56,301 nt of DNA from IMG/VR virus record IMGVR_UViG_3300044684_000298, positions 1 to 56,301 of that record. One strand, 5' to 3'. The stretch's first letter is position 1. Each line of letters begins with the position of its first letter. A program made the translations under genes and the position numbers. Positions 8,085 to 56,301 of the stretch are shown here, piece by piece. The notes under the pieces are model-generated. The model ran no database searches and was not told where the DNA came from. It was given only the letters and a program-made list of their open reading frames with translations. Source of the DNA: a virus.

Positions 8085-8618
8085 TCAGCGCGTCCGGAGG
8101 TGGTGGAGCATCAGCAGCGCGGCGACCGCGTTCGCCGAGCGCACGTCGCCCTTCGCGACCAGCTCCGGTACCTGCGCCAGGGGCACCCACTCTCGGCGTT
8201 CGGACTCGAAGTCGTCTTCCGGGTGCCCGACGTACTCGGCGGACTCCGCCCAGAAGACGTGGTGCCGGGCGTCCGAGAGGCCGTTGGACGGCTCGACGGT
8301 CAGCAGCGGCCGGAGCGGCCCCGGGCGCCAGCCGGTTTCCTCCAGCATCTCCCGCGCGGCGGCGGCGGCCAGGTCCTCGCCGTCCTCGACGACGCCGGCG
8401 GCGAGTTCCCAGCCCCAGGTGTCGGTGATGAAGCGGTGCCGCCACAGAAGGAGGGCCTCGTCACGGTCGTTGACGGCGGTGGCGAGCGCGACCGGGCGCT
8501 GCCGGATGAGGTAGTGGTCGAGGTGGCGGCCGTCAGGCAGCTCGACGTCGGCGAGACGGACCCGGAGCCACGGGTTCTCGTAGACGGTGTGCTCTTCGAG
8601 GTTCTTCCAGACGGACAC
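8085..8618 (-). CDS. NUDIX hydrolase
   Basis: 177 residues. A perfect Nudix box lies at residues 75-97: G75, E81, R89-E90, E93-E94 and G96 with the standard spacing. The architecture is like ADP-ribose/NDP-sugar pyrophosphatases, hydrolysing a nucleoside diphosphate linked to another group. It is transcribed leftward, opposite to the late genes, next to a large HTH/TPR regulator; such pairs are common on Streptomyces chromosomes. It may be a lysogeny-expressed accessory (moron) gene. The substrate cannot be told from sequence. Confidence 0.9.
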   Translation of the reverse strand: MSVWKNLEEHTVYENPWLRVRLADVELPDGRHLDHYLIRQRPVALATAVNDRDEALLLWRHRFITDTWGWELAAGVVEDGEDLAAAAAREMLEETGWRPGPLRPLLTVEPSNGLSDARHHVFWAESAEYVGHPEDDFESERREWVPLAQVPELVAKGDVRSANAVAALLMLHHLRTR

Positions 8619-20865: not shown

Positions 20866-21702
20866 TTGGGAATCCGCCTGATCGTCGCGGTCATGGACCA
20901 CGCCCCGACGACGCTCTCGCACAGAGAGTGGAGGCTCCTGAGCGTGCTCGCCGAGGAGGCGAACGACGACACCGGCCTGACGTGGGGCAGCGTTCAGTCG
21001 CCGACGGTTCTGCGTCGTGCCGGGCTGTCCCGGACGCAGCTCTACGAGGTGCTGCGGCGCCTGCTCGAGGAGAAGGCGCTGGAGAAGGTGACCGTGGGTC
21101 AGCGGAACGCCACGGCGAAGTACCGCATCCTGCCTCAGTGTCCCGTCCAGCGGAACTCTGAGGAACCCGTTCAGAGTCCCGAAGACCGGGACACTGAACG
21201 GCCTCAGTGTCCCGCCCACAGGGACTCTGACGGAAAGTTCAGTATCCCGAAGACCGGGACACTGACCGAATCTCAGAGTCCCGAAAACCGGGACACTGAC
21301 GATTCTCAGAGTCCCGGCCAGCAGGACACTGACGAGTCTCAGAGTCCCGCCCAGCGGGACCCCTACTCCTATAGAGAGAGAAAGAACTCTCTCTCACCCC
21401 ACGCCATCGAGGGCGCGTTCGCCGGGTTCTGGCGCGAGTACCCCCGCAAGGTCGGCAAGCAGGACGCGGCCAAGGCCTTCGCGGCAGCGATCAAGTCCGG
21501 CGCCAGCCCCGAGCACATCACCGCGGCCGCCATCAAGCACCGCGCCCACTGGCAAGCCGAGTGCCGGCAGCCGAACTTCATCCCCTACCCGGCCACCTGG
21601 CTGCGCCGCGGCAGCTACGACGACGAGCTCCACACACCCAGGCAGCCCCCCGCGCAGCAGCGCGGCCTGTGGGCCGACCCCACCGAACGAGGGATCTTCT
21701 GA
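20866..21702 (+). CDS. Replication initiator (lambda O-like winged-helix protein) carrying its own origin
   Basis: 278 residues, TTG start behind GAAGGAAA. Residues ~15-85 form a winged HTH: LSHREWRLLSVLAEEAND, TVLRRAGLSRTQLYEVL, LEKVTVGQRNATAKYRI. Residues ~90-165 are low-complexity and encoded by the iteron array. Residues ~180-240 are a DnaD/C-terminal-like helical domain (FAGFWREYPRKVGKQDAAKAF, WLRRGSY) as in phage O-type helicase loaders. The stop overlaps the ATG of the DnaB-like helicase by one base. Known parallel: lambda O carries ori inside its gene and loads DnaB. Likely role: binds the internal iterons and recruits the helicase. Confidence 0.85.
   Translation: MGIRLIVAVMDHAPTTLSHREWRLLSVLAEEANDDTGLTWGSVQSPTVLRRAGLSRTQLYEVLRRLLEEKALEKVTVGQRNATAKYRILPQCPVQRNSEEPVQSPEDRDTERPQCPAHRDSDGKFSIPKTGTLTESQSPENRDTDDSQSPGQQDTDESQSPAQRDPYSYRERKNSLSPHAIEGAFAGFWREYPRKVGKQDAAKAFAAAIKSGASPEHITAAAIKHRAHWQAECRQPNFIPYPATWLRRGSYDDELHTPRQPPAQQRGLWADPTERGIF
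21135..21360 (+). other. Candidate replication origin: seven iteron-like inverted repeats inside the initiator gene
   Basis: Seven imperfect dyads with consensus TCAGWGTCCCG-N5-CGGGACWCTGA start at 21135, 21171, 21204, 21239, 21273, 21306 and 21339, spaced 36, 33, 35, 34, 33, 33 bases (~3 helical turns). The fourth copy is in a different reading frame from the others (offsets 35 then 34), so the DNA pattern and not the peptide is conserved. This indicates DNA or RNA-level selection. Just downstream, the A/T-richer stretch CCTATAGAGAGAGAAAG (21368-21384) could be an unwinding element. Confidence 0.75.
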
Positions 21703-31437: not shown

Positions 31438-32298
31438 CTACGACTTCCGAGGCGACCGCTTCGCCGCCTTCTTTGCTGGCGCCTTCTTCGCCGCCCGCTT
31501 CCCGGCCGGGGCCTTCTCCGGGTGCTCTTCCCGGGCCCGCGCCAGACTCGCCTCCAATGCCGCCATCAGATCCCCCGCAGCCGGCGGGAGCACCCGGCCG
31601 GCCTCCGGCGCCGGCAGGCCCTTCGCCTTCGCGTCCACCAGGTCCATGAGCGCCCGGCTGTACTCGTCCCGCTCCTGCTCCATCTCCCACCCGGTGGACA
31701 CGGCCTGCATGAGCTGGAGCGCCAGGTCGATCTCCGCCCCCGAGGGCTCCTGTGCGGCCTCCGGGGCGACGCCTCCGGGGTCGCGGACCTCGTCCGGCCA
31801 CAGGAGCGTGGTCATCGTCATGGTTCGCCCCCGGACGCCGAGGAGCACCAAGCTGTCGCGGGTGCGGAGGGCGGTGCGGGCGACGGCCACCTGCTCCGAG
31901 CGCAGCAGCGCCTCGCGCAGGAGGGCGTACGGGCGGCTGAAGGGCGCGGACGCGCCGAGGTAGTACGTGCGGTCCCAGAAGATCGGCTCGACCTGGCTGC
32001 GCGGGATGAAGCCGAGCACGCGGATCTCCTTGGTGTCCGGCGTCGGCAGCTGGGACAGGTCGTCGTCGGTCAGGACCAGCATCCGCCCGTCCGGCAGCTC
32101 GTAGCCGCGGGCGATCTCGTCCGGCCGCAGCTCCCGGCCGTCCAGGTCGCAGACGTTCCTCTGGCGTACCCGGCCTCCGTCGTCCGCGTGCACGCGATGC
32201 AGGGGCACGCGGTGGTGTTCGGTCGCGGCGTGCACGGTCACCGGGATCGTGACCAGGCCCCAGCTGATCACCTTCCGGGCGATGGTCGTGATCGCCAT
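31438..32298 (-). CDS. ku: Ku-type DNA end-binding protein
   Basis: 286 residues. The N-terminus AITTIARKVISWGLVTIPV, the segment LDGRELRPDEIARGYEL, PIFWDRTYYLG and TRDSLVLLGVRGRTMTM are the bacterial Ku beta-barrel/bridge motifs, in order. The last ~40 residues are Lys/Ala-rich (KRAAKKAPAKKAAKR), as in actinobacterial Ku C-terminal tails that bind DNA and stimulate the ligase. No LigD gene is seen, so host LigD would be the partner. Family knowledge: mycobacteriophages Omega and Corndog encode Ku to close short-overhang genome ends. A similar role is inferred here. Confidence 0.92.
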   Translation of the reverse strand: MAITTIARKVISWGLVTIPVTVHAATEHHRVPLHRVHADDGGRVRQRNVCDLDGRELRPDEIARGYELPDGRMLVLTDDDLSQLPTPDTKEIRVLGFIPRSQVEPIFWDRTYYLGASAPFSRPYALLREALLRSEQVAVARTALRTRDSLVLLGVRGRTMTMTTLLWPDEVRDPGGVAPEAAQEPSGAEIDLALQLMQAVSTGWEMEQERDEYSRALMDLVDAKAKGLPAPEAGRVLPPAAGDLMAALEASLARAREEHPEKAPAGKRAAKKAPAKKAAKRSPRKS

Positions 32299-33252: not shown

Positions 33253-33528
33253 CTACCCGCCCGAGCCGCCGCCCTCGGCCTCTCGCCGCCGGAGCAGGTC
33301 CGTGCGCTGCCCCTGCCTGACGTTGCGGTTCCGGAAGTACGGCGCCGCGAGGCGCCAGTCCACGGCCTTCGACCTGCCCACCTCGATCACCGGGGGGAAG
33401 TCGGGGTCCTCGCGGGAGAGCTGCGAGACGCGCTGATGGCTGATGCGCTCGACGACGCCCTCTTGGACCAGGCGCCGCGCCAGCTCGCGGAACGACAGCA
33501 ACTCAGGCCCTCCTCCCGACTCGGCCAC
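33253..33528 (-). CDS. HTH DNA-binding protein heading the leftward Ku cluster
   Basis: 91 residues from the GTG at 33528, chosen because GAGAGGA lies ~7 bases upstream; a GTG at 33546 would sit inside the palindrome. HTH segment LSFRELARRLVQEGVVERIS, QRVSQLSREDPDFPPVIEVG, with the wing RSKAVDWRLAAPYFRNRN. Likely an autoregulator acting at the palindrome just upstream and, through it, on the ku cluster. Confidence 0.7.
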   Translation of the reverse strand: MAESGGGPELLSFRELARRLVQEGVVERISHQRVSQLSREDPDFPPVIEVGRSKAVDWRLAAPYFRNRNVRQGQRTDLLRRREAEGGGSGG

Positions 33529-33668: not shown

Positions 33669-33983
33669 ATGGCTGATCGTACGGGCGACACCAACGCCCG
33701 CCACACCCCCTCGACCGCGACCCGCCGCGCCTGCGACCTGCTGCTCGCCGTGCTGCTGCTGTGCGTCGCGTTCCACCCGCTCGCGCACGCCGCCGGCCCG
33801 GCCGCGACCGCGACGCTCGGCCTCGTGCTGCACGCGGCCGCCCACCACCTCGGCTGGCTGATCGCCGCGGCTGCCGTCATCGTCGGGCTGCGGGCCGTCC
33901 CGCACCCCTCCGCCCGCCTCCTGGAGCTCCTCCTCGGCGCGTGGGCCGTCCGCCTCCTCCTGCGCGGGACGGCGGCCGCCTGA
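33669..33983 (+). CDS. Small membrane protein of the transfer module (Spd-like)
   Basis: 104 residues, ATG behind GGGAGG. Hydrophobic segments at ~21-40 (CDLLLAVLLLCVAFHPLAHA) and ~50-70 (HHLGWLIAAAAVIVGL), plus a third weaker one. Stop overlaps the next ATG by one base. In Streptomyces conjugative elements, small membrane spread proteins occupy this place next to DUF2637 and tra genes. Confidence 0.6.
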   Translation: MADRTGDTNARHTPSTATRRACDLLLAVLLLCVAFHPLAHAAGPAATATLGLVLHAAAHHLGWLIAAAAVIVGLRAVPHPSARLLELLLGAWAVRLLLRGTAAA

Positions 33984-34948
33984 TGTACGGACGCATCCTG
34001 CGAGCCCTCGGCCACCTCACCGGCGCCATGATCCTCGTCAGCGCCGGGTGGACCGCCTTCAACACCATCGCCCTCATCGGCACCCGCAACCCCCTCTCCT
34101 ACGGCGTCGCGCTCCTCTTCGACGCCGCCTGGCTCGTCGCCGTCGCCGTCCAGCACGAGATGCGGTACCGCGTCGACCTCCGCGCCCGCCTCAGCATCGT
34201 CGGCTGGGCCCTCACCGCCCTCGCCGCGGGCATCAACGCCGCCAGCGAGGTCCTCGGCCGCCACAGCATCCCCGTCGCCGTCGTCGCCTCCCTGGTGCCC
34301 CTGCTCGCGAAAGTCTGCCTCGCGCTGAAGCTGTTCACCGAGGCCAACAGCGCCGAAGCGAAGACCCGGTTCACCGCCCTGACCCTGTCCTGGCACGACC
34401 AGGTGACGGAGCAGCGGATCGGCGAGGCCATGGCCGCCCAGTGGCACCGCGTCGAGCGGGCGCACGAGAACGCCGACGCCCGCCGCCTCGCCGCGACGCA
34501 GGCCGACCGGCTGGCCAACCTGGAGCTCACCTCCGGCACGGAGCAGCCCGTCACGCGCGTCGCGGAGCCTGTCGTGTGGCAGCCCCCGGCGACGATGCCG
34601 CTCGCCCCCCTCTTCCGCGAGCCGTCCGTGCCCCCCGACGAGCCTGCGCCGACGCCCGAGGAGACGCCGCGCGAGGCCGTGATCCCGCCGCGAATGCCGT
34701 TCGGCTTCGCCACGACGGTCCACGACGCGACCACAGCCGGAGCACCGCTTGTGGCCACGACGGTCCACGACGCGACCCCGGACCCGCGCACCGCCGCCCT
34801 CATGGCCCGCAACGCGGCGCGTTCCGCCGCCCGCCTCGCCGCGATCGAGGAGATCCGCGTCGAGGGCCTGTCGATCGAGGACGTCGTCGACAGGTACGGC
34901 GTCACCGAGAAGACCGCGCGCCGCTGGATCCAGCAGGCCGAGCGCTGA
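33983..34948 (+). CDS. DUF2637-type membrane protein with C-terminal HTH
   Basis: 321 residues, ATG overlapping the previous stop (TGATG). Four transmembrane helices in the first ~115 residues (GAMILVSAGWTAFNTIALIG, YGVALLFDAAWLVAVAVQ, LSIVGWALTALAAGI, VAVVASLVPLLAKVCLAL). A long helical/Pro-rich linker has the exact repeat ATTVHDAT, and a C-terminal HTH-like end reads GLSIEDVVDRYGVTEKTARRW. DUF2637 proteins are typically encoded just before the FtsK/Tra gene of AICEs. Likely a membrane partner of the DNA pump; the HTH may touch DNA. Confidence 0.75.
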   Translation: MYGRILRALGHLTGAMILVSAGWTAFNTIALIGTRNPLSYGVALLFDAAWLVAVAVQHEMRYRVDLRARLSIVGWALTALAAGINAASEVLGRHSIPVAVVASLVPLLAKVCLALKLFTEANSAEAKTRFTALTLSWHDQVTEQRIGEAMAAQWHRVERAHENADARRLAATQADRLANLELTSGTEQPVTRVAEPVVWQPPATMPLAPLFREPSVPPDEPAPTPEETPREAVIPPRMPFGFATTVHDATTAGAPLVATTVHDATPDPRTAALMARNAARSAARLAAIEEIRVEGLSIEDVVDRYGVTEKTARRWIQQAER

Positions 34949-34984
34949 GCACCCGCCCCTGACCTACCCGAAGGAACCCCGACC

Positions 34985-37117
34985 GTGGCCACGCTCACCG
35001 CGCCCCCGCCCGTCGACCTGACCAAGCCCACCCACGACGAGCCCACCGAGCCCACCGAGCCGGTGGAGGCCGTCGACCGGCCCGACAACCCGCTCGCCGA
35101 CTGGCTCACCGTTCCGGACATCCCCGTCCTGCCCCACTGGGCCCGCTCCTGGCAGGCTCTCGGCGCCAACACCGGCGCCCTGTGCCGCCTCGGCGTCTGG
35201 CACGCCAAGTACCACGGCGTCCGCCTGCCCAAGTACGGCGCCAAGACCGCGTGGCTGGCCTCCCGGGGCGCGTTCCGCGCCTCCTGGCGACTGTGGCCCG
35301 TCCTGTCCGCGCACGAGCACACCAAGACCGTCAAGGCCCTCGCGGCGCAGCACCGGGCGAAGCCCGATGACGTCGCCCTCGCTGTGGCGCACCAGGACGC
35401 GCACCGGGTCCGTACCGTCGCCCGCCGCTGGCGGTTCGGCGCGGCCGCGCTGACCGCCGCCGCCGTGGTGACCACCTGGTCACTGGCGGACGGGTGGTGG
35501 AAGACCCTGCTCGGCGGTACCGTCCTCACCCTGCTCACGGTCCTGGGCTGGCACGAGGACGCCCGCATCCTCGACCAGGCCGCGCCGCCCCTGCGGCTCC
35601 AGATGAACGCCGAGCACCTCAACGACGCACTGCGCGCCGCCAGCCTCCTCAAGCCGGGGAAGGGCGACGACCCGGGCCCCAACGTCACCCTCGTCATGGG
35701 CCCGCTCCGCGACGGCAACGGTTGGTCGGTCGTCTTCGACCTCCCCCGAGGCGGCGGAAAGACCGCCAGCGACGTCCTCGCCAAGCGCGAGGTCCTCGCC
35801 CACGAACTCGGCGTCGACGAGATCCAGCTCGTCATGGCCCGGGTCCGCGCCGCCCAGGGCGGCAACGCCGGCCGCGTGTCGATGTGGGTCGCCGACGATG
35901 ACCCGTACCTCGCCCCGCCCGTGCCCTCCCCGCTGGTCAAGCTGGACACGTTCAGCATCTGGGACCCGGTGCCGTTCGGGCAGGACGCCCGCGGCAACCG
36001 CATCAGCGTGCCCGTCGTGTGGCAGTCGATGTTCTTCGGCGGCCTGCCCCGCCGCGGCAAGACCTTCACCCAGCGCCTGCTCACCGCCGCCGGTCTCCTC
36101 GACCCCTACGTTCGGCACTACGTCGCCGACTTCAAGGGCGGCCAGGACTGGATCCAGATGCGGCAGGTCGCTCACCGCATGGTCGTCGGCGCGGAGGACG
36201 ACGCGATCACGGCCTTCAAGGCCATGCTCAAGGAGCTGCTCGCCGAGATGGAGCGCCGCTTCGCGATCCTGCGCGGCCTGCCCACCTCAATCTGCCCCGA
36301 GGGGAAGCTGACGCCGCAGATCGTCATGAAGTACGGCCTGCCGTTCATCTTCCTGACGGTGGATGAGCTGCAAGAGGCGTTCCTCGCCATGGACGACAAG
36401 GAGCGGGAGGACGTCGTCGACGACCTGGCGCGGATCGCCCGCCGCGGCCCGGCCGCCGGCTTCATCTCGAACTACGCGTCGCAGCGGCCGGACGCCAAGT
36501 CGGTGCCGACGAAGCTGCGGGAGATCATCACGATCCGCTGCTGCACCCAGGTCACCGACAAGACGTCCAGCGACATGGTCCTCGGCTCGGGCAAGGCCGC
36601 GATGGGCGCGGACGCGTCGCTGCTGTCCGAGGATCACGTCGGCGTGACTGTGCTGGTCACCGGTCCGGCGTCGTTCGCGACGGTGAAGAACGACATGCTC
36701 ACCACGGCCGAGTTCAACGCCATGTGCGCCAAGGGCCGCGCCCTGCGGAAGGCGGCGGGTCAGCTGTCGGGCGACGCCGTCGGTGACCTCTCGTCGCTCG
36801 CGGACGAGCAGCAGATCACGATCCCGCCGATCGTCACCGACGTGCTGGAGGTGATGCGGCACTCCATCCGCATGTTCACCACCGACCTCCTCGCCGGGCT
36901 GGTGAACCTGGATGAGGACCGGTACGGCGACTTCGACCCGGAGCGGCTCGCCTCGGAGCTGGAGAAGGCCGGCGTCCGCCGGACGTCCCGCCAGGTCAAG
37001 ATCGACGGGGAGAACCGGGCGGGCTACCAGCGGCGCGACATTGAGGACGCGGTCCCGGTCGAGCTGCTCGCCCCGCGCCCGGTAGAGCCCCCCGCCTCTA
37101 CCGACCCCGCTACCTGA
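34985..37117 (+). CDS. FtsK/SpoIIIE-like DNA translocase (TraB/TraSA-type transfer protein)
   Basis: 710 residues, GTG behind CGAAGGAA. N-terminal ~150 residues soluble, then two transmembrane helices (~152-186, GAAALTAAAVVTTWSL and TLLGGTVLTLLTVLGW). The motor domain at ~240-600 has Walker A GGLPRRGKT (352-360) and Walker B FIFLTVDE (454-461). LPRGGGKT at 253-260 is a second P-loop-like stretch. The last ~60 residues (DPERLASELEKAGVRRTSRQ, ENRAGYQRRDIED) look like the winged-helix DNA-reading domain. Streptomyces TraB proteins move double-stranded plasmid DNA between mycelial cells using 8-base repeats; this is the closest match by layout. Confidence 0.88.
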   Translation: MATLTAPPPVDLTKPTHDEPTEPTEPVEAVDRPDNPLADWLTVPDIPVLPHWARSWQALGANTGALCRLGVWHAKYHGVRLPKYGAKTAWLASRGAFRASWRLWPVLSAHEHTKTVKALAAQHRAKPDDVALAVAHQDAHRVRTVARRWRFGAAALTAAAVVTTWSLADGWWKTLLGGTVLTLLTVLGWHEDARILDQAAPPLRLQMNAEHLNDALRAASLLKPGKGDDPGPNVTLVMGPLRDGNGWSVVFDLPRGGGKTASDVLAKREVLAHELGVDEIQLVMARVRAAQGGNAGRVSMWVADDDPYLAPPVPSPLVKLDTFSIWDPVPFGQDARGNRISVPVVWQSMFFGGLPRRGKTFTQRLLTAAGLLDPYVRHYVADFKGGQDWIQMRQVAHRMVVGAEDDAITAFKAMLKELLAEMERRFAILRGLPTSICPEGKLTPQIVMKYGLPFIFLTVDELQEAFLAMDDKEREDVVDDLARIARRGPAAGFISNYASQRPDAKSVPTKLREIITIRCCTQVTDKTSSDMVLGSGKAAMGADASLLSEDHVGVTVLVTGPASFATVKNDMLTTAEFNAMCAKGRALRKAAGQLSGDAVGDLSSLADEQQITIPPIVTDVLEVMRHSIRMFTTDLLAGLVNLDEDRYGDFDPERLASELEKAGVRRTSRQVKIDGENRAGYQRRDIEDAVPVELLAPRPVEPPASTDPAT

Positions 37118-37222
37118 CGGCCCGGCCGGGGCCCGCTACCGGTACCCGCCTAGTAGACGGGCCCCGCTACCCCGGTAGCGGCCCCGGTAGAGGCCGCTGA
37201 CCAGGCAGGTAGCGCCGGTAAA
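37078..37222. other. Cluster of CCCGGTAG/CTACCGGG-type repeats (clt-like transfer site candidate)
   Basis: CCCGGTAG occurs exactly at 37078-37085, 37171-37178 and 37183-37190. Inverted or partial copies are CTACCG at 37098, CTACCTG at 37110, CTACCGG at 37136, CTACCCC at 37167, AGGTAGCG at 37208 and CCGGTAAAG at 37214. The cluster spans the 3-prime end of the FtsK/Tra gene and the 160-base gap after it. Known Streptomyces clt loci consist of 8-base TraB recognition sequences next to the tra gene; this motif differs from the GACCCGGA type. Function is inferred. Confidence 0.65.
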
Positions 37223-37279
37223 GGGGCCCAGAGCGGCCCCGCGATCACCCCCGTACCGCCCCGATTCCAGGGAGACACC

Positions 37280-37519
37280 GTGGAAGACCCGCCCCGCTAC
37301 TACACGCCCGGCGAGGCCCGCCGCCTGGCCGCGCTGCTCGCCCGCGGCTCCTACCGGACGCTCCGCGGCAAGGACACCGCCGCCGTTGACCGCCAGCTCG
37401 ACCAGCTGCGCCGTCAGGCCCGTGAGCGGGTCGCAGCCGAGGACCAGGCCATCGAGGACGCCCAGCGCCGCAAGGTCCGCGAGCGGGCGCAGAAGCTCGC
37501 TGCCCGCCGCGTTCGCTGA
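37280..37519 (+). CDS. Small basic helical protein of the transfer module
   Basis: 79 residues, GTG behind CAGGGAGA. Starts EDPPRYYTPGEARRLAALLAR; the rest is a highly charged helix (QLDQLRRQARERVAAEDQ). Located directly after the clt-like repeats. Small basic proteins are common in AICE spread operons. Function unknown. Confidence 0.6.
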   Translation: MEDPPRYYTPGEARRLAALLARGSYRTLRGKDTAAVDRQLDQLRRQARERVAAEDQAIEDAQRRKVRERAQKLAARRVR

Positions 37520-37567
37520 CCACCCGCCACCGAACCCAGCAACCCCACCGTGAGAGGAACCCCGGCC

Positions 37568-37753
37568 ATGCCCAAGCCCAAGTACGAGATCAGTGCCACC
37601 AACGCCGACGGCACCCCGCACATCGACGTCATCGGTCAGGCCCTCGGCAAGACCGAGGCGACCCGGGCCGCCGTCTACAGCGACACCGAGCTCGCCGAGC
37701 GCCAGGCCGCCGCCGACAAGGCCGGCGCGACCCTCCACATTCGCAAGCTCTGA
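37568..37753 (+). CDS. Small hypothetical protein (Spd-module)
   Basis: 61 residues from the ATG at 37568 behind GAGAGGAA. Beta-alpha pattern: KYEISATNADGTPHIDVIG then YSDTELAERQAAADKAGA. No family recognised. Confidence 0.6.
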   Translation: MPKPKYEISATNADGTPHIDVIGQALGKTEATRAAVYSDTELAERQAAADKAGATLHIRKL

Positions 37754-37761
37754 CCCCTGTT

Positions 37762-37800
37762 CCCGGGGCGGCGAAGCCTGCGACAGCGAACCGCCCCGGG
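37762..37800 (+). terminator. Hairpin in the spd-like operon
   Basis: CCCGGGGCGG (37762-37771) pairs perfectly with CCGCCCCGGG (37791-37800). Confidence 0.55.
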
Positions 37801-37826
37801 CCGACCGACGAGATCGGAACACCATC

Positions 37827-38156
37827 ATGACCAACCACCAGGCCGCCTCGCAGCCCGAACGTCACCCATACGCCGAGCCGCAGCAGATCGGCGTCACCGC
37901 CGACGGCGATCCCATCTGGCGCTGGCCGCAACCCACCGTCGTCCACCACCACTACCCGCCCGCCGCCCCCGCCCGGCGAGGTCTCCAGCCGTCCGAGGTC
38001 CTCGGCTGGGTCATGGTCGGCGGCGCCGTCGCCGGCACGCTGCTCGCCGTCGCCGTCAGCGCCGTGGCCATCGCCATCGCCTCGGTGTGCATCGCCATCG
38101 CCGTCCTGGTGCTCCGCGCCATCTGGCGCGACATCAAGCCCAGCACCGGCCGTTGA
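37827..38156 (+). CDS. Spd-like membrane protein
   Basis: 109 residues, ATG start. Soluble, His/Pro-rich first half (PTVVHHHYPPAAPA), then ~50 hydrophobic residues forming two adjacent helices (VLGWVMVGGAVAGTLLAVA, VAIAIASVCIAIAVLVLRA). Proteins with a Pro-rich head and a Val/Ala/Ile tail are called SpdC/SpdD-like in Streptomyces conjugative elements and take part in intramycelial spreading. Confidence 0.6.
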   Translation: MTNHQAASQPERHPYAEPQQIGVTADGDPIWRWPQPTVVHHHYPPAAPARRGLQPSEVLGWVMVGGAVAGTLLAVAVSAVAIAIASVCIAIAVLVLRAIWRDIKPSTGR

Positions 38157-38179
38157 CCGCGACCGCGATGATGGGCGGC

Positions 38180-38587
38180 ATGACCGACAGCAGTCCCGCC
38201 CGCGACCACCTCTCTCGGCTCGTCCTCGAACGCCGCAAGGAGACCGGCCGCACCCTCCGGGAAGTCAGGAAAGCAAGCCAGGACGAGACGATCAGGGAGG
38301 ACTGGATCAACCGCCTTGAGCGTGGTCTCGTTGGCCACATCCCGGGGGAACGCCGACTCTACGCCCTCGCCCGCGGACTCGACACCCCGGCCGACGAACT
38401 CAAGGCCGCGACCGCCCTTCAACACCTCGGCCTCGGTGACCAGAACAACGACACCGACGACTGGATCGTCATCCACGACCCGACTGGCCGGCTCCGACAG
38501 CTCGCCCGGATCCTGAACGGGGCCAGCGATGACGAGCAGAACCGGATCGCGGGCCGCCTGGACGAGCTGATCGCCGACCTGAAGTGA
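38180..38587 (+). CDS. XRE-like HTH regulator after the transfer module
   Basis: 135 residues from the ATG at 38180; in-frame ATGs at 38168 and 38171 are alternatives. HTH over residues ~6-70: LSRLVLERRKETGRTLREVR, INRLERGLVGHIPGE, LYALARGLDTPADELKAA. The C-terminal ~50 residues (DWIVIHDPTGRLRQLARILN) may dimerise. May regulate the tra/spd genes. Confidence 0.75.
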   Translation: MTDSSPARDHLSRLVLERRKETGRTLREVRKASQDETIREDWINRLERGLVGHIPGERRLYALARGLDTPADELKAATALQHLGLGDQNNDTDDWIVIHDPTGRLRQLARILNGASDDEQNRIAGRLDELIADLK

Positions 38588-39674: not shown

Positions 39675-39749
39675 AGCCCTGTAGAGCAGCTCGGTCAGCT
39701 CGCCGCCCTCATAAGGCGGAGGTCGTCGGTTCGACTCCGACCAGGGCCA
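39675..39749 (+). tRNA. tRNA-Met (anticodon CAT)
   Basis: 75 bases. Acceptor AGCCCTG/CAGGGCC with one mismatch at the first pair (A-C), D-stem GAGC/GCTC, anticodon stem CCGCC/GGCGG around loop CTCATAA, variable AGGTC, T-arm GTCGG-TTCGACT-CCGAC, discriminator A; CCA is not encoded. CAT could also be an Ile2 tRNA if lysidine-modified. The top-pair mismatch recalls initiator tRNAs, but the stem lacks the initiator GC triplet. Confidence 0.85.
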
Positions 39750-39753
39750 CGTT

Positions 39754-39829: not shown

Positions 39830-39917
39830 GGAGGAGCCAGCCGAAAGACGGCGGCGGCAGCGCTCTCGAAAAGCGCCAGGGGTAACACCCGTGCGAGTTC
39901 GACCCTCGCCTCCTCCG
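39830..39917 (+). tRNA. tRNA-Ser (anticodon CGA)
   Basis: 88 bases. Acceptor GGAGGAG/CTCCTCC with discriminator G, D-stem GCC/GGC, anticodon stem AGCGCT/AGCGC around loop CTCGAAA, the long variable arm of class II tRNAs (CAGGGGTAACACCCGTG), and T-arm GCGAG-TTCGACC-CTCGC. It reads UCG, a frequent Ser codon in this GC-rich genome. CCA not encoded. Confidence 0.9.
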
Positions 39918-39949
39918 CTCCCGCCCACCCCTCACCCGGAGGCACCCTC

Positions 39950-40855: not shown

Positions 40856-41308
40856 GTGGCAGCGTCCAAGGCCCAGCAGGCGGCGAGCGCCGACCGGCGC
40901 CGGGCGGCCGTCGAGCTGCGCATCGCGGGCAAGTCCTGGCAGGAGATCGCCGACCTCCTCCACTACGACAGCAAAGCCTCGGCCTGCACCGACGTGCGGC
41001 GAGCCCTGGAGAAGGCCGTCGCGAAGCTCAACGTGCCGCTGGAGGCCCACCGGCAGCTGGAACTGGACCGGCTCGACGCCATGCAGAACGCCCTGTGGGA
41101 CAAGGTCCTCGCTGGCGACACCAAGGCGATCGACACCTCGCTCCGGCTGATGGACCGCCGCGCGAAGCTCCTTGGGCTGGACGCGCCGCAGCGGCACGAG
41201 CTGACGCTGGAGAGCATCGATGCCGCGCTCGCTGACGTTGAAGAGCAGCTCGCCGCTGCTCGAAGCCAAGCGGCAGAAGCTGCTGGCGCTGAAGAAGGCG
41301 AGGGCTGA
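40856..41308 (+). CDS. Terminase small subunit
   Basis: 150 residues, GTG behind GGGAGGTGACC. N-terminal HTH: ADRRRAAVELRIAGKSWQEIA, LLHYDSKASACTDVRRALEKA. Helical middle (LDRLDAMQNALWDKVLAGD) and acidic end. It lies directly before the large subunit with an 89-base overlap. It recognises the packaging site and directs the motor. Confidence 0.8.
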   Translation: MAASKAQQAASADRRRAAVELRIAGKSWQEIADLLHYDSKASACTDVRRALEKAVAKLNVPLEAHRQLELDRLDAMQNALWDKVLAGDTKAIDTSLRLMDRRAKLLGLDAPQRHELTLESIDAALADVEEQLAAARSQAAEAAGAEEGEG

Positions 41309-42809
41309 GCTTCAGCGCCTGGAGACCGAGCGGCTCCGCCGCATCGACGTCTTCGGCAAGCTCGGCTACGTCCCCACCGACCGGCAGCGCGAGTTCCACG
41401 CCGCGGGCGAGTTCGATGTGCTGTACGGCGGGGCGGCCGGCGGCGGGAAGACCCGGGCGCTGCTGATGGAGGGCATCCGGGCGTGCGTGCGCCACCCCGG
41501 GCTGCGAGTGGGTGCGTTCCGGCGGACGTACGGGGAGCTGAAGGAGTCCCTGCTCGCCGAGCTGGCCGAGGTCGGGTACGCGCAGGCGCTCGGCGCGACG
41601 TGGAACGGCACCGAGTACGAGCTGCGGTTCGCGAACCGGTCGGTGCTGATGTTCCGGTACGCCGAGACCATCAAGGACGCCACACGCCGTCAGGGAGGGC
41701 AGTACCAGCTGCTGCTCTTCGACGAGCGGACGCTGACGCCCCCGGAGGTGTGCGCGTTCCTGGAGTCCCGGCTGCGCTCCGGCCGCGCCGACCGGCCCGT
41801 GCTCGGCATCCGGTCCGGGACCAACCCGGGCGGGGCCGGCCACGGCACGGTGAAGGCCCGCTACATCGACGCCACCGCGTACGGAACGAAGGTCATCACC
41901 GACCGGCGCGGCCGCCTGGTCCGCTTCATCCCCTCGAAGCTCGCCGACAACCCGCACGTCAACCCGGAGTACGCGGACGACCTGCGGAACCTGCCCGAGC
42001 AGCTCCGCAAGGCGTTCCTCGAAGGGGACTGGGACTCGTTCATGGGCCAGGCGTTCGGCGAGTGGAACCACGACCGGCACACCCTCGACCCCATCACGAT
42101 CCCCGCGGAGTGGCGGCGCGTGATGGGCGTCGACTGGGGCTTCGCGAACCCCTGGTGCGCCCTGTGGCTCGCCATCGACGAGGACGACCGGGCGTGGGTC
42201 TACCGGGAGCTGTACGCGGCGAAGGTGGGCGAGGTCGACCAGGCGAAGCGCATCCTCGCAGCCGAGGCCCTCGGCGAGCACGTCGCCCCCAGGTGGGCGG
42301 ACGACGCCATGTGGGCCACCCGGGGCGACGCCCAGCCGATCGCGTCCGTGTACGCGAAGACCGGCGTGCACCTCACCGAGGCCGGGAAGGGCGGCCGCGT
42401 CGCCGGCTGGCAGCGCCTGCGCTCCTACCTGGGCGAGGGCCCGGCCTGTGCGCACCACCGGGCGCAGGGATGGGACTCCTGCCCGCGCCTGCACGTGTTC
42501 CGGACGGCGGAGAACCTCATCCGCACCCTCCCAGCGCTGCCGTTCGCCACCACGGGCGACCCGGAGGACATCGACAGCAACGCCGAGGACCACGCGCCGG
42601 ACGCCCTCCGGTACGCGCTGATCAACCTCGGCGGCGGCCCGCGGTTCCCGGTCGTCGACGAGGACCAGGCGCCGGGCGTGGTGCAGGAGCTGAAGGCGCC
42701 GTTCGCCGCCACGTTGGCGCACAACCCGGACCCCGACGCCCCCGTGCGGGGCTTGGACGACGACGAGGTTCCGGAGCGGGGAAGGGTGGTGGCGTCGCCG
42801 TGGGTGTAG
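41220..42809 (+). CDS. Terminase large subunit (ATPase/nuclease)
   Basis: 529 residues from the ATG at 41220, with GGAGAG six bases upstream; it overlaps the small subunit by 89 bases. Walker A GGAAGGGKT (70-78), Walker B-type YQLLLFDERT, coupling region, and C-terminal nuclease Asp in MGVDWGFANPW plus a late acidic cluster (DIDSNAEDHAPDALRYAL). It pumps DNA into proheads and cuts it. The family is of the Terminase_6/3 type; cos or pac cutting cannot be told from it. Confidence 0.95.
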   Translation: MPRSLTLKSSSPLLEAKRQKLLALKKARAELQRLETERLRRIDVFGKLGYVPTDRQREFHAAGEFDVLYGGAAGGGKTRALLMEGIRACVRHPGLRVGAFRRTYGELKESLLAELAEVGYAQALGATWNGTEYELRFANRSVLMFRYAETIKDATRRQGGQYQLLLFDERTLTPPEVCAFLESRLRSGRADRPVLGIRSGTNPGGAGHGTVKARYIDATAYGTKVITDRRGRLVRFIPSKLADNPHVNPEYADDLRNLPEQLRKAFLEGDWDSFMGQAFGEWNHDRHTLDPITIPAEWRRVMGVDWGFANPWCALWLAIDEDDRAWVYRELYAAKVGEVDQAKRILAAEALGEHVAPRWADDAMWATRGDAQPIASVYAKTGVHLTEAGKGGRVAGWQRLRSYLGEGPACAHHRAQGWDSCPRLHVFRTAENLIRTLPALPFATTGDPEDIDSNAEDHAPDALRYALINLGGGPRFPVVDEDQAPGVVQELKAPFAATLAHNPDPDAPVRGLDDDEVPERGRVVASPWV

Positions 42810-54171: not shown

Positions 54172-56301
54172 GTGGAGTCGTTCCTGCCCCCGGTCCTCGT
54201 CGAGCTCGGGGCCGAGGACACCGGCGCCGTCAAGGCCATCCGCGGTCTCGTCAATGCTCTCAAGACGCTCCCGGAGGTCGCCACCGCGGCGTCGGACGCG
54301 CTGAAGGTCGTCCAGGACGCGGCCGTGCAACTCGGCGCGGGCATCACCGAGCCCCTGGACGCGGCCAAGACCAGCATCCGGGGCCTGGCGTCGGCGATGC
54401 GCGCGCTCGCGAAAACGGCGCAGACCACGGACGACGAGGGCCAGACAGCGATGCAGCAGATCGCTGCGTCCGCGCGGGAGATGGGCGCCGCCGTCGCCGA
54501 AGGCAGCACCGCGGCCCGCGAATCGCTCTCTGGGCTGCGCGGGGACTTCCGCACCACCGCGACCGAGGCCACCGGCGCCGCCGCCCAGACCACCGCCGCC
54601 GCACGCGAGTCCGCGACCGCGGCCGAGACCAGCGCGGGCGCCGCGTCGACCTCGGCAGCCGAGGCCTCGGCGGCGATGGGCGAGACCGCCGGTGCGCTGA
54701 TGAAGTACGTCACCGGTCTCGCGGGCACGGCGTTCGGCCTGTTCGAGGCGGTCAAGGGCGCGACGAAGTTCAACAGCGAGATCACCAAGCTCAACACCCA
54801 GGCCGGGGTGTCGAAGAGCCAGCTCGCGGGTCTGGGCAACGGCGTGCTCGACCTGGCGGGGCAGGTCGGCGAGAGTCCGGATTCGCTGGCGGAGGCCCTG
54901 TTCCACGTCGAGTCGAACTTCGCGAGCCTGGGGATCACCGCGCCGAAGGCACTCGACATCGTCAAGGTCGCGGCCGAGGGGGCGCAGGTCGGCGGCGCGA
55001 ACCTGGTCGACGTCACCAACGCCCTCACCGCCGCCGTCGCGAGCGGGATCCCGGGCGTGCAGAACATGCAGCAGGCCATGGGCGCGCTGAACGCGATCGT
55101 GGGCGCGGGCGACATGCAGATGCAGGACCTGGCCGACGCCTTCGGCTCGGGCATGGTCGCCACCGTCAAGGGCTTCGGCCTGTCACTGGACGACGTCGGC
55201 GCCGCCCTCGCTGTCTTCGGCGACAACAACATCCGAGGGGCGAAGGCCGGAACCGACCTGCGCATGACCGTGCAGGCTCTCGCGCAGCCCGTGTCCACGG
55301 CCACGGACGTGATGCACCGGCTCGGCATCACGACCGGAACGTTCGCCCAGGACATGCGCTCCGGAGGCCTGCTCAAGGCCATGGACGACCTGATCACGCG
55401 CATGCGCAACGCCGGGATCAACGCCAAGGAGCAGGGCCAGATCATCACCGAGCTTTTCGGCAAGAAGGCCGGCTCCGGCATCAATGTCCTGGCTGACCAG
55501 ATGGACCGGCTGCGGTCGAAGTACCCGGCGATCACGGACGGGGCGAACAAGTTCGGCGGGGCGTGGCAGACCGCTTCCCACACGGCGGGGCAGGAGTTCA
55601 ATGACCTGAAGTCGGGTCTGGAGGCGCTGGGGGTCAAGCTCGGTACGGCACTCCTGCCGCCGCTGACGAAGGTCCTGGGGTGGATCCGGCAGGGCGTCAC
55701 GTGGGTCACGCAGCACAAGGCGGCGGTGCAGGCCCTGGCATCGGTGCTCGGCGGCGTGCTCGTCGCGGCCCTGTGGGGCATCGTGTCCGCGCTGGTGGCG
55801 ATGGACTCGGTGCCGATCGTGGCCGTGATCGCCGGGATCGCCGCGGCGCTGATCTTCGCCTACGTGCACTTCAAGAGCTTCCGCACCGTCGTGGACGACG
55901 TCGCGAAGTTCCTGAAGAGCGTGTTCGTCGGCGCGATCCACATCGCCAAGGACGTCATCAAGGACCTGGTGTCCTGGTGGAACGGGCACAAGCAGATCTT
56001 CATCGACGCCTGGAACGACCTGATGAAGGGGGTCCACAAGGCCGCGTTGTGGTTCCAGGTGAACGTGATCAACTGGATCAAGTATTTGATCTTCGAGGTC
56101 GAGACATGGTGGAAGGCCCACTCTCAGCAGATCGCCGAGGTCTGGCACGTCGTCTGGGAAACGATCAAGACGGTTCTGAAGGTCGCGTGGGACGGCACGA
56201 TCAAGCCCACGATCACGCTGATCGTGTTCTTCTGGAAGAACGCCTGGGACACCATCCGCGACGTCTTCAAGCTGGTCTGGAACGTGATCAAGGACGTGCT
56301 C
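54172..56301 (+). CDS. Tail tape-measure protein, N-terminal part (continues off the right edge)
   Basis: 710 codons visible; GTG at 54172 with GGGGG seven bases upstream. Residues ~1-180 are Ala-rich coiled coil. Residues ~190-480 are the TP901-type core: FNSEITKLNTQAGVSKSQLA, LAEALFHVESNFASLG, MQQAMGALNAIVGAGDMQ, NNIRGAKAGTDLRMTVQ, ITELFGKKAGSG. Two hydrophobic segments follow (~525-565), then Trp/Lys-rich amphipathic helices. It is open at the window end; the C-terminal part is at 1-1163. Confidence 0.93.
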   Translation, partial: MESFLPPVLVELGAEDTGAVKAIRGLVNALKTLPEVATAASDALKVVQDAAVQLGAGITEPLDAAKTSIRGLASAMRALAKTAQTTDDEGQTAMQQIAASAREMGAAVAEGSTAARESLSGLRGDFRTTATEATGAAAQTTAAARESATAAETSAGAASTSAAEASAAMGETAGALMKYVTGLAGTAFGLFEAVKGATKFNSEITKLNTQAGVSKSQLAGLGNGVLDLAGQVGESPDSLAEALFHVESNFASLGITAPKALDIVKVAAEGAQVGGANLVDVTNALTAAVASGIPGVQNMQQAMGALNAIVGAGDMQMQDLADAFGSGMVATVKGFGLSLDDVGAALAVFGDNNIRGAKAGTDLRMTVQALAQPVSTATDVMHRLGITTGTFAQDMRSGGLLKAMDDLITRMRNAGINAKEQGQIITELFGKKAGSGINVLADQMDRLRSKYPAITDGANKFGGAWQTASHTAGQEFNDLKSGLEALGVKLGTALLPPLTKVLGWIRQGVTWVTQHKAAVQALASVLGGVLVAALWGIVSALVAMDSVPIVAVIAGIAAALIFAYVHFKSFRTVVDDVAKFLKSVFVGAIHIAKDVIKDLVSWWNGHKQIFIDAWNDLMKGVHKAALWFQVNVINWIKYLIFEVETWWKAHSQQIAEVWHVVWETIKTVLKVAWDGTIKPTITLIVFFWKNAWDTIRDVFKLVWNVIKDVL
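56188..56301 (+). repeat. 114-base exact repeat, copy at the right end
   Basis: Identical to 420-533. The codon frame is the same in both copies. Joining base 56301 straight to base 1 would break the frame, so the two window ends are not adjacent as they stand. Confidence 0.9.

Follow-up and report, generated by a model that had tools for sequence, protein, structure and literature searches.

The phage genome analysed here carries what we hold with high confidence to be a genuine transfer (Tra) module of the type found in actinomycete integrative and conjugative elements (AICEs), and this module belongs to the phage itself. By analogy with characterized relatives of its central translocase, the module would most likely move excised prophage DNA between hyphae or across septa. 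The studied DNA is a single IMG/VR record, IMGVR_UViG_3300044684_000298, and its entire length of 56,301 nt (56.3 kb) is referred to as the window. As a first-pass annotation made from the letters alone had described, the module genes lie closely spaced on one strand between 33669 and 38587, placed between accessory genes and packaging genes, with TerS/TerL a short way downstream. The features of the region are as follows.

33253-33501, minus strand: putative HTH/excisionase-like regulator at the left edge of the module (gene model)
33669-33983, plus strand: small membrane protein of 104 aa with two hydrophobic segments, partly conserved in the related locus L006
33983-34948, plus strand: DUF2637-like (SpdB2-position) membrane protein of 321 aa with a C-terminal HTH (weak Pfam match, HTH_23)
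34985-37117, plus strand: TraB/FtsK-type dsDNA translocase of 710 aa with a predicted C-terminal winged helix (Pfam, PHROGs, tree, AF2 model)
37079-37228, no strand assigned: candidate clt, made of GGTAG(C/A)GG repeats that occur in both orientations and reach into the end of the translocase gene (motif counts)
37280-37519, plus strand: small protein of a recurrent companion family (18 related loci)
37568-37753, plus strand: small protein (gene model)
37827-38156, plus strand: DUF6251-like small membrane protein with one strong TM segment (companion in 34 related loci)
38168-38587, plus strand: XRE-like HTH protein closing the operon, membership uncertain (HTH_31, E 9.6e-5)
40856-42809, plus strand: small and large terminase, downstream boundary of the module (small terminase by position)

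Judged by its large terminase (TerL), portal, major head protein (MCP), tape measure protein (TMP) and integrase, the 56.3-kb genome is that of a temperate tailed phage (siphovirus). PHROGs matches cover TerL, portal, head morphogenesis, major head protein, TMP and a tyrosine integrase, and further matches fall on a RecT-like stretch in one gene, a helicase and DnaB. The TMP is split over the contig ends (last gene 54172-56301, first gene 1-1163). Aligned to the TMP of the relative G023, the two parts overlap within an internal repeat, so the genome is permuted and either closed or almost closed. The complete temperate siphovirus setting proposed earlier is thereby borne out, and the host is almost certainly a Streptomyces relative. 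Several observations concern the surroundings of the module. A full-length bacterial Ku gene (31438-32298, minus strand; TIGR02772 234 bits, above cut-off; Pfam Ku 2e-41) lies just to its left, with a possible role in end joining or genome circularisation. A tRNA-Met (cat, 39675-39750, plus strand) and a tRNA-Ser (cga, 39830-39918, plus strand) lie between the module and the terminase genes. The gene before TerL (40856-41308) carries the PHROG 645 label 'RNase E', its position and its conservation with TerL suggesting a small terminase. An array of ~34-bp repeats of the GTCCCGAACACCGGGACACTGA type at 21132-21360, within the reading frame 20893-21702 and upstream of DnaB, looks like replication-origin iterons inside an initiator gene.

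Unlike AICEs, the phage has a full virion gene set together with phage-type replication genes (RecT-like, DnaB, SSB-like), and it is without a recognisable AICE Rep/Prim-Pol or GntR regulator. Int and Tra are present, and no AICE-type Rep (RepSA, RepAM, Prim-Pol) was found among the scanned genes; nor was ParAB or a plasmid Rep recognised among the genes run against family libraries, which include the tyrosine integrase. No GntR/KorA-type regulator was recognisable in the 56.3-kb genome, and this was counted against the reading as a transfer module.

The identity of the translocase rests on several lines of comparison. The 710-aa protein matches PF01580 (FtsK_SpoIIIE) above the Pfam cut-off (4.8e-6) and the PHROG of FtsK/SpoIIIE-like proteins (6.7e-29), and it has a Walker A motif (GLPRRGKT) and a Walker B motif (FLTVDE), of which GLPRRGKT and TVDE are conserved in the translocase alignment A1. 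In the PDB, sequence profiles reach TcpA, FtsK and EccC; the AF2 model, whose mean pLDDT is 72, matches the FtsK motor on DNA (E 1e-14) and the conjugation coupling protein TcpA (E 2e-13). Within the C-terminal 80 residues, at about 615-690, the model contains a helix-helix-hairpin unit (pLDDT about 90) consistent with a winged helix, so that the winged-helix end first read from the sequence reappears as a winged-helix-like fold. The two membrane helices claimed with it fared less well: helices are modelled at about 150-190, but they are moderately hydrophobic and fall below the cut-off. In a quick tree that included pSVH1 TraB, pFP11, pPaSha2, Gilgamesh, pZL12 gp071, chromosomal FtsK and EccC, the protein groups with pSVH1 TraB and pFP11 FtsK, and a branch supported at 99 parts the TraB-type proteins from chromosomal FtsK/EccC; because the tree has several long branches, only this split was used. 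The family profile matches pSVH1 TraB at 2e-83. The protein shares the superfamily clade, but the NCBIfam equivalog plasmid_TraB scores 20 bits against a cut-off of 800, so we call the protein TraB-type and not a TraB equivalog. Profile search and tree thus agree with the proposed FtsK/TraB-like pump, placing the protein with TraB, away from chromosomal FtsK/EccC, and not as a terminase; the grouping with pSVH1 TraB rules out a chromosomal FtsK. A defence-system identity was also rejected, PADLOC yielding weak motor-level matches alone (SspH, mad8).

The 321-aa protein encoded before the translocase had been described as a DUF2637 membrane protein. Taken alone this is weak, as PF10935 (DUF2637) is matched at E 0.0012, below the cut-off (HTH_23, E 6.9e-5), but homologues adjoin the translocase in 56 of about 75 loci; pSVH1 SpdB2 is likewise a weak profile match to the DUF2637 family (E 6e-4, probability 28). 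Of the three to four Spd-like small proteins that the first-pass annotation had counted, those at 37280 and 37827 do recur (18 and 34 loci), whereas no homology to a characterised Spd protein emerged, and Pfam and NCBIfam gave no match for most of the small module proteins. The longer reading frame of the gene at 37827-38156 matches PF19764 at E 0.0036. The product of 33253-33501 has no Pfam match, and a counterpart with 71% identity is encoded 2.5 kb upstream of ftsK in another phage (L007).

The candidate clt extends over the last part of the translocase gene and ~110 bp beyond it. Eight GGTAG sites occur in about 130 bp, six of them being GGTAGMGG, as against nine GGTAGMGG in the whole 56-kb genome, and GTAGNGG is found 7 times in 250 bp at the array versus at most 2 times in 2213 other windows. 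Across loci, 62 of 73 have at least three GTAGNGG in 250 bp around the stop codon (mean elsewhere, 0.17 per 250 bp). Since unbiased counts of single 7-mers in the array region did not discriminate in this GC-rich DNA, the motif test was judged on the genome-contig loci, which were fetched after the motif had been noticed; among these later loci with close translocases, 37 of 41 pass. Every close relative inspected, whether phage or AICE, has an array of this type in the corresponding position; GTAGAGGGG is one of the local variants, and a CTGACCTGC-like element is common. The octamer GACCCGGA, which we take to be that of the pSVH1 TraB repeats, is repeated in pSVH1 at 8147-8256, directly behind traB (stop at 8142). 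Binding of pSVH1 TraB to 8-bp repeats is published, as cited in PMC3583192, and the tested clt of pWTY27 consists of the end of traA and 159 bp beyond (PMC3583192). The position of the candidate clt matches that of the clt/TRS array behind pSVH1 traB and of the tested clt of pWTY27.

Differences between arrays are tied more closely to the winged-helix domain (partial Mantel 0.42) than to the motor (0.21), a correlated divergence that may partly reflect physical linkage, since the region encoding the winged helix adjoins the array in the DNA. AICEs with DUF3631 (RepAM) have a second GTAGCGG array, with the CTGACCTGC element, near rep and several kb behind the translocase (L160, 16343-16552; L175, 15038-15247; L154, 16325-16497; L161, 15111-15321). 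With half-sites unlike those of the ftsK array, the second array may be an origin, and given its similarity such arrays could also be origins or operators. A 2022 survey points out that a clt motif had yet to be described for the archetype pSAM2 (PMC9513070); with the array behind the translocase, transfer sites can be predicted for many AICEs.

Prophages bounded by att repeats show that the module and the virion genes belong to one element. Streptomyces sp. WAC 01529, whose chromosome is complete, has a prophage around the translocase locus L180; the flanking direct repeats stand 42.1 kb apart at a tRNA-Lys and enclose an integrase, a DUF2637-like gene, ftsK, TerL, portal, protease, coat protein, a gene of TMP size and an amidase. 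The prophage around L150 in strain AcH 505 has the same layout, its repeats, 34.5 kb apart at a tRNA-Thr, enclosing an integrase, replication genes, a DUF2637-like gene, ftsK, TerL, portal, protease and capsid. Judged by gene models, both prophages also have a large primase/polymerase-like gene. An assembly chimera, which the first-pass annotation had named as a way for its proposal to fail, is ruled out by the closed TMP ends and by these two chromosomal prophages between their own att repeats, and the translocase family is present at 17 phage loci (some near-duplicates). Behind the AcH 505 prophage, at the same tRNA-Thr site, lies an AICE with its own translocase, which suggests how cassettes meet; in this region (L214-L218, concatenated 16603-89100) the tra prophage and at least one AICE stand in tandem at one tRNA-Thr, with three translocase genes of the superfamily within 50 kb.

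The translocase family is found well beyond these strains. IMG/VR yielded 22, later 24, loci with a translocase at 66-94% identity; 47 loci came from bacterial genomes, and almost every close one among these belongs to Streptomycetaceae. A locus was classed as phage if at least two head/packaging genes lay on the same strand within 10 kb, and as AICE, after curation, if it had replication and/or integrase genes with fewer than two virion genes. Sixteen phage loci besides the studied genome (17 with it, some near-duplicates) have the translocase upstream of the packaging genes, mostly 1.4-4 kb upstream of TerL/portal on the same strand and usually in the order ftsK, TerL, portal, protease. About 27 loci were taken as AICEs and the remainder is undecided; G001, with a 94% identical translocase, a tape measure protein, DnaB and a serine integrase, had no packaging genes that could be found and was assigned neither to phages nor to AICEs. 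Among the sequenced phage isolates of INPHARED the family is absent, Gilgamesh alone having a distant FtsK. The TerL of the studied phage had no match in records with a close ftsK (0/23), and the non-phage setting that this suggested was overturned by other terminase types found with PHROGs.

The phages that carry the translocase differ in their terminases (PHROG 979/2, 19179/9 and 9) and portals (PHROG 12 and 104), and on a quick tree of the translocase the phage label needs 8 changes, or at least 7 when phage and AICE loci alone are considered. These patterns point to several separate acquisitions of the translocase by related phages. The L019 phage and an AICE of S. parvus (L151) are 92% identical over 2366 bp, a segment running from just ahead of ftsK to about 150 bp past its stop codon; they also have in common two short pieces with small module genes, and the remainder differs. 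L007/L141 and L025/L165/L168 have a similar pattern of sharing. Judged from these alignments, the moving unit is the ftsK gene plus the array, to which small neighbouring genes may be added.

G023, the phage most similar in backbone (TerL 81%, virion genes collinear), has no translocase, and its corresponding locus encodes a DUF2637 protein with a good match (E 1.4e-35) together with two other proteins. The phage cycle can thus do without the module, and natural variants of the kind envisaged for mating assays exist alongside related phages that have the gene. Among the 47 TerL relatives, a set with many fragments, an FtsK-like match is present in 10 and absent from the other 37. Where present, the gene is under constraint: dN/dS is 0.18 between the studied phage and L006, 0.10-0.25 between phages and AICE or undecided partners and 0.19-0.28 between phages. 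Values of 0.10-0.28 that include phage pairs indicate that the translocase gene is kept working in phages.

We favour, with moderate confidence and by analogy with studied conjugative elements, the virion-independent spread of phage DNA to other hyphae as the main role of the module. As for pSVH1 TraB, the translocase would assemble as a hexamer at the membrane, where its winged helix would bind the repeats at 37079-37228 of the phage genome, be this excised, circular or replicating, and it would pump double-stranded phage DNA into a touching hypha. The DUF2637 protein and the small membrane proteins may then help the DNA to cross septa within the recipient mycelium. Besides moving as virions, the phage would thus pass by contact out of lysogens or infected compartments.

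A narrower role, in which phage or prophage DNA would be pumped through cross-walls or into spores of one mycelium, bringing infection or lysogeny to every compartment but not to other mycelia, appears unlikely, although it calls for the same machinery (TraB motor, array and DUF2637/Spd-like proteins). Mycelial growth makes septa a barrier to any phage, and this was counted in its favour. Spd proteins act in intramycelial spread, but in AICEs it is TraB itself that moves DNA from donor to recipient (PMC9513070), and no sporulation-linked feature was found in the analysis. We regard it as improbable that the pump or its membrane partners act as a moron that blocks the entry or spread of competing AICEs, plasmids or phages. 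PHROGs does file phage FtsK-like proteins under morons, and AICEs and tra prophages share hosts, even a tRNA site, which makes competition likely; such a role, however, would not need a DNA array that is co-inherited with the gene, the motor is intact and under purifying selection, and the PADLOC matches stay at motor level.

The place of the gene upstream of TerL/portal, on the same strand and mostly 1.4-4 kb away, would suit a pump that aids DNA packaging, ejection or concatemer resolution in the lytic cycle, but the terminases of the translocase phages are unrelated, the translocase is equally common in AICEs without virion genes, and 37 of 47 TerL-related contigs (many of them fragments) lack an FtsK match, which leaves this explanation very improbable. 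Hardly any probability attaches either to a passenger module that recombination at shared att sites brought in from an adjacent AICE, without benefit to the phage: the tandem of AICEs and tra prophage at one tRNA-Thr in AcH 505 and the in places recent cassette exchange (L019/L151) fit it, but the conserved position in many phages, the phage-to-phage dN/dS of 0.19-0.28 and the retained array argue for upkeep.

The favoured reading, contact-mediated transfer of phage DNA, can be set beside known systems. AICEs and Streptomyces conjugative plasmids (pSVH1 TraB, pFP11 and an element of S. decoyicus) have a TraB-type translocase in common with the phage and, like its module, a DUF2637/SpdB2-position gene before the translocase, small companions and a repeat array behind. 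The best plasmid match is the 14.6-kb S. decoyicus element (NZ_CP107886), with 69% identity to the phage translocase; this record (L002, 29,140 bp) appears to consist of two tandem copies of a 14,570-bp AICE-like unit, its protein accessions being repeated at 14,570-bp spacing. As in the studied phage, virion genes and an FtsK-like gene (gp071) are combined in pZL12 (NC_013420), which is described as an extrachromosomal Streptomyces phage that requires a tra gene and two adjacent genes for conjugal transfer. However, gp071 has no match to the phage translocase family profile even at E<10, and pZL12 is a 90-kb ParAB phage-plasmid, whereas the family described here includes tRNA-integrated phages with an AICE-type translocase and array. 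The circular Pseudonocardia plasmid pPaSha2 (L003, CP052773), probably an undescribed conjugative phage-plasmid, has phage capsid, portal, terminase and holin genes together with a DUF2637-FtsK pair (32% identity); it differs in its distant translocase, in having no GGTAG-type array and in a module far from the packaging genes on the opposite strand. Streptomyces phage Gilgamesh also encodes an FtsK-type motor (the 'moron' phrog_1358, 28% identity), but this lies outside the TraB clade on a long branch, and no DUF2637 gene is annotated beside it. The searched literature, with preprints and most subscription journals outside its scope, held no AICE/phage hybrids beyond pZL12-type elements. Given that the conjugative phage pZL12 and the phage/DUF2637-FtsK plasmid pPaSha2 were already known, this kind of element is not wholly new; what is new is its recurrence in integrating phages, with an AICE-type translocase of another family than pZL12 gp071 and with the array included.

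We give about even chances to the broader view that integrating tailed phages of Streptomycetaceae are recurrent dual-mode elements that travel as virions and, through a TraB pump, as naked double-stranded DNA, and that AICEs and unrelated phages exchange the pump gene and its clt array as a mobile cassette, a process aided when elements integrate in tandem at one tRNA gene. Conjugation and viral infection are treated as separate routes, pZL12 being the tested Streptomyces exception that we found. Given that the AICE-type cassette recurs in phages whose packaging genes are unrelated, and also in Streptomyces lysogens that are named and can be cultured, prophage spread without virions is directly testable; viruses of this kind may travel through cell contact in addition to virus particles.
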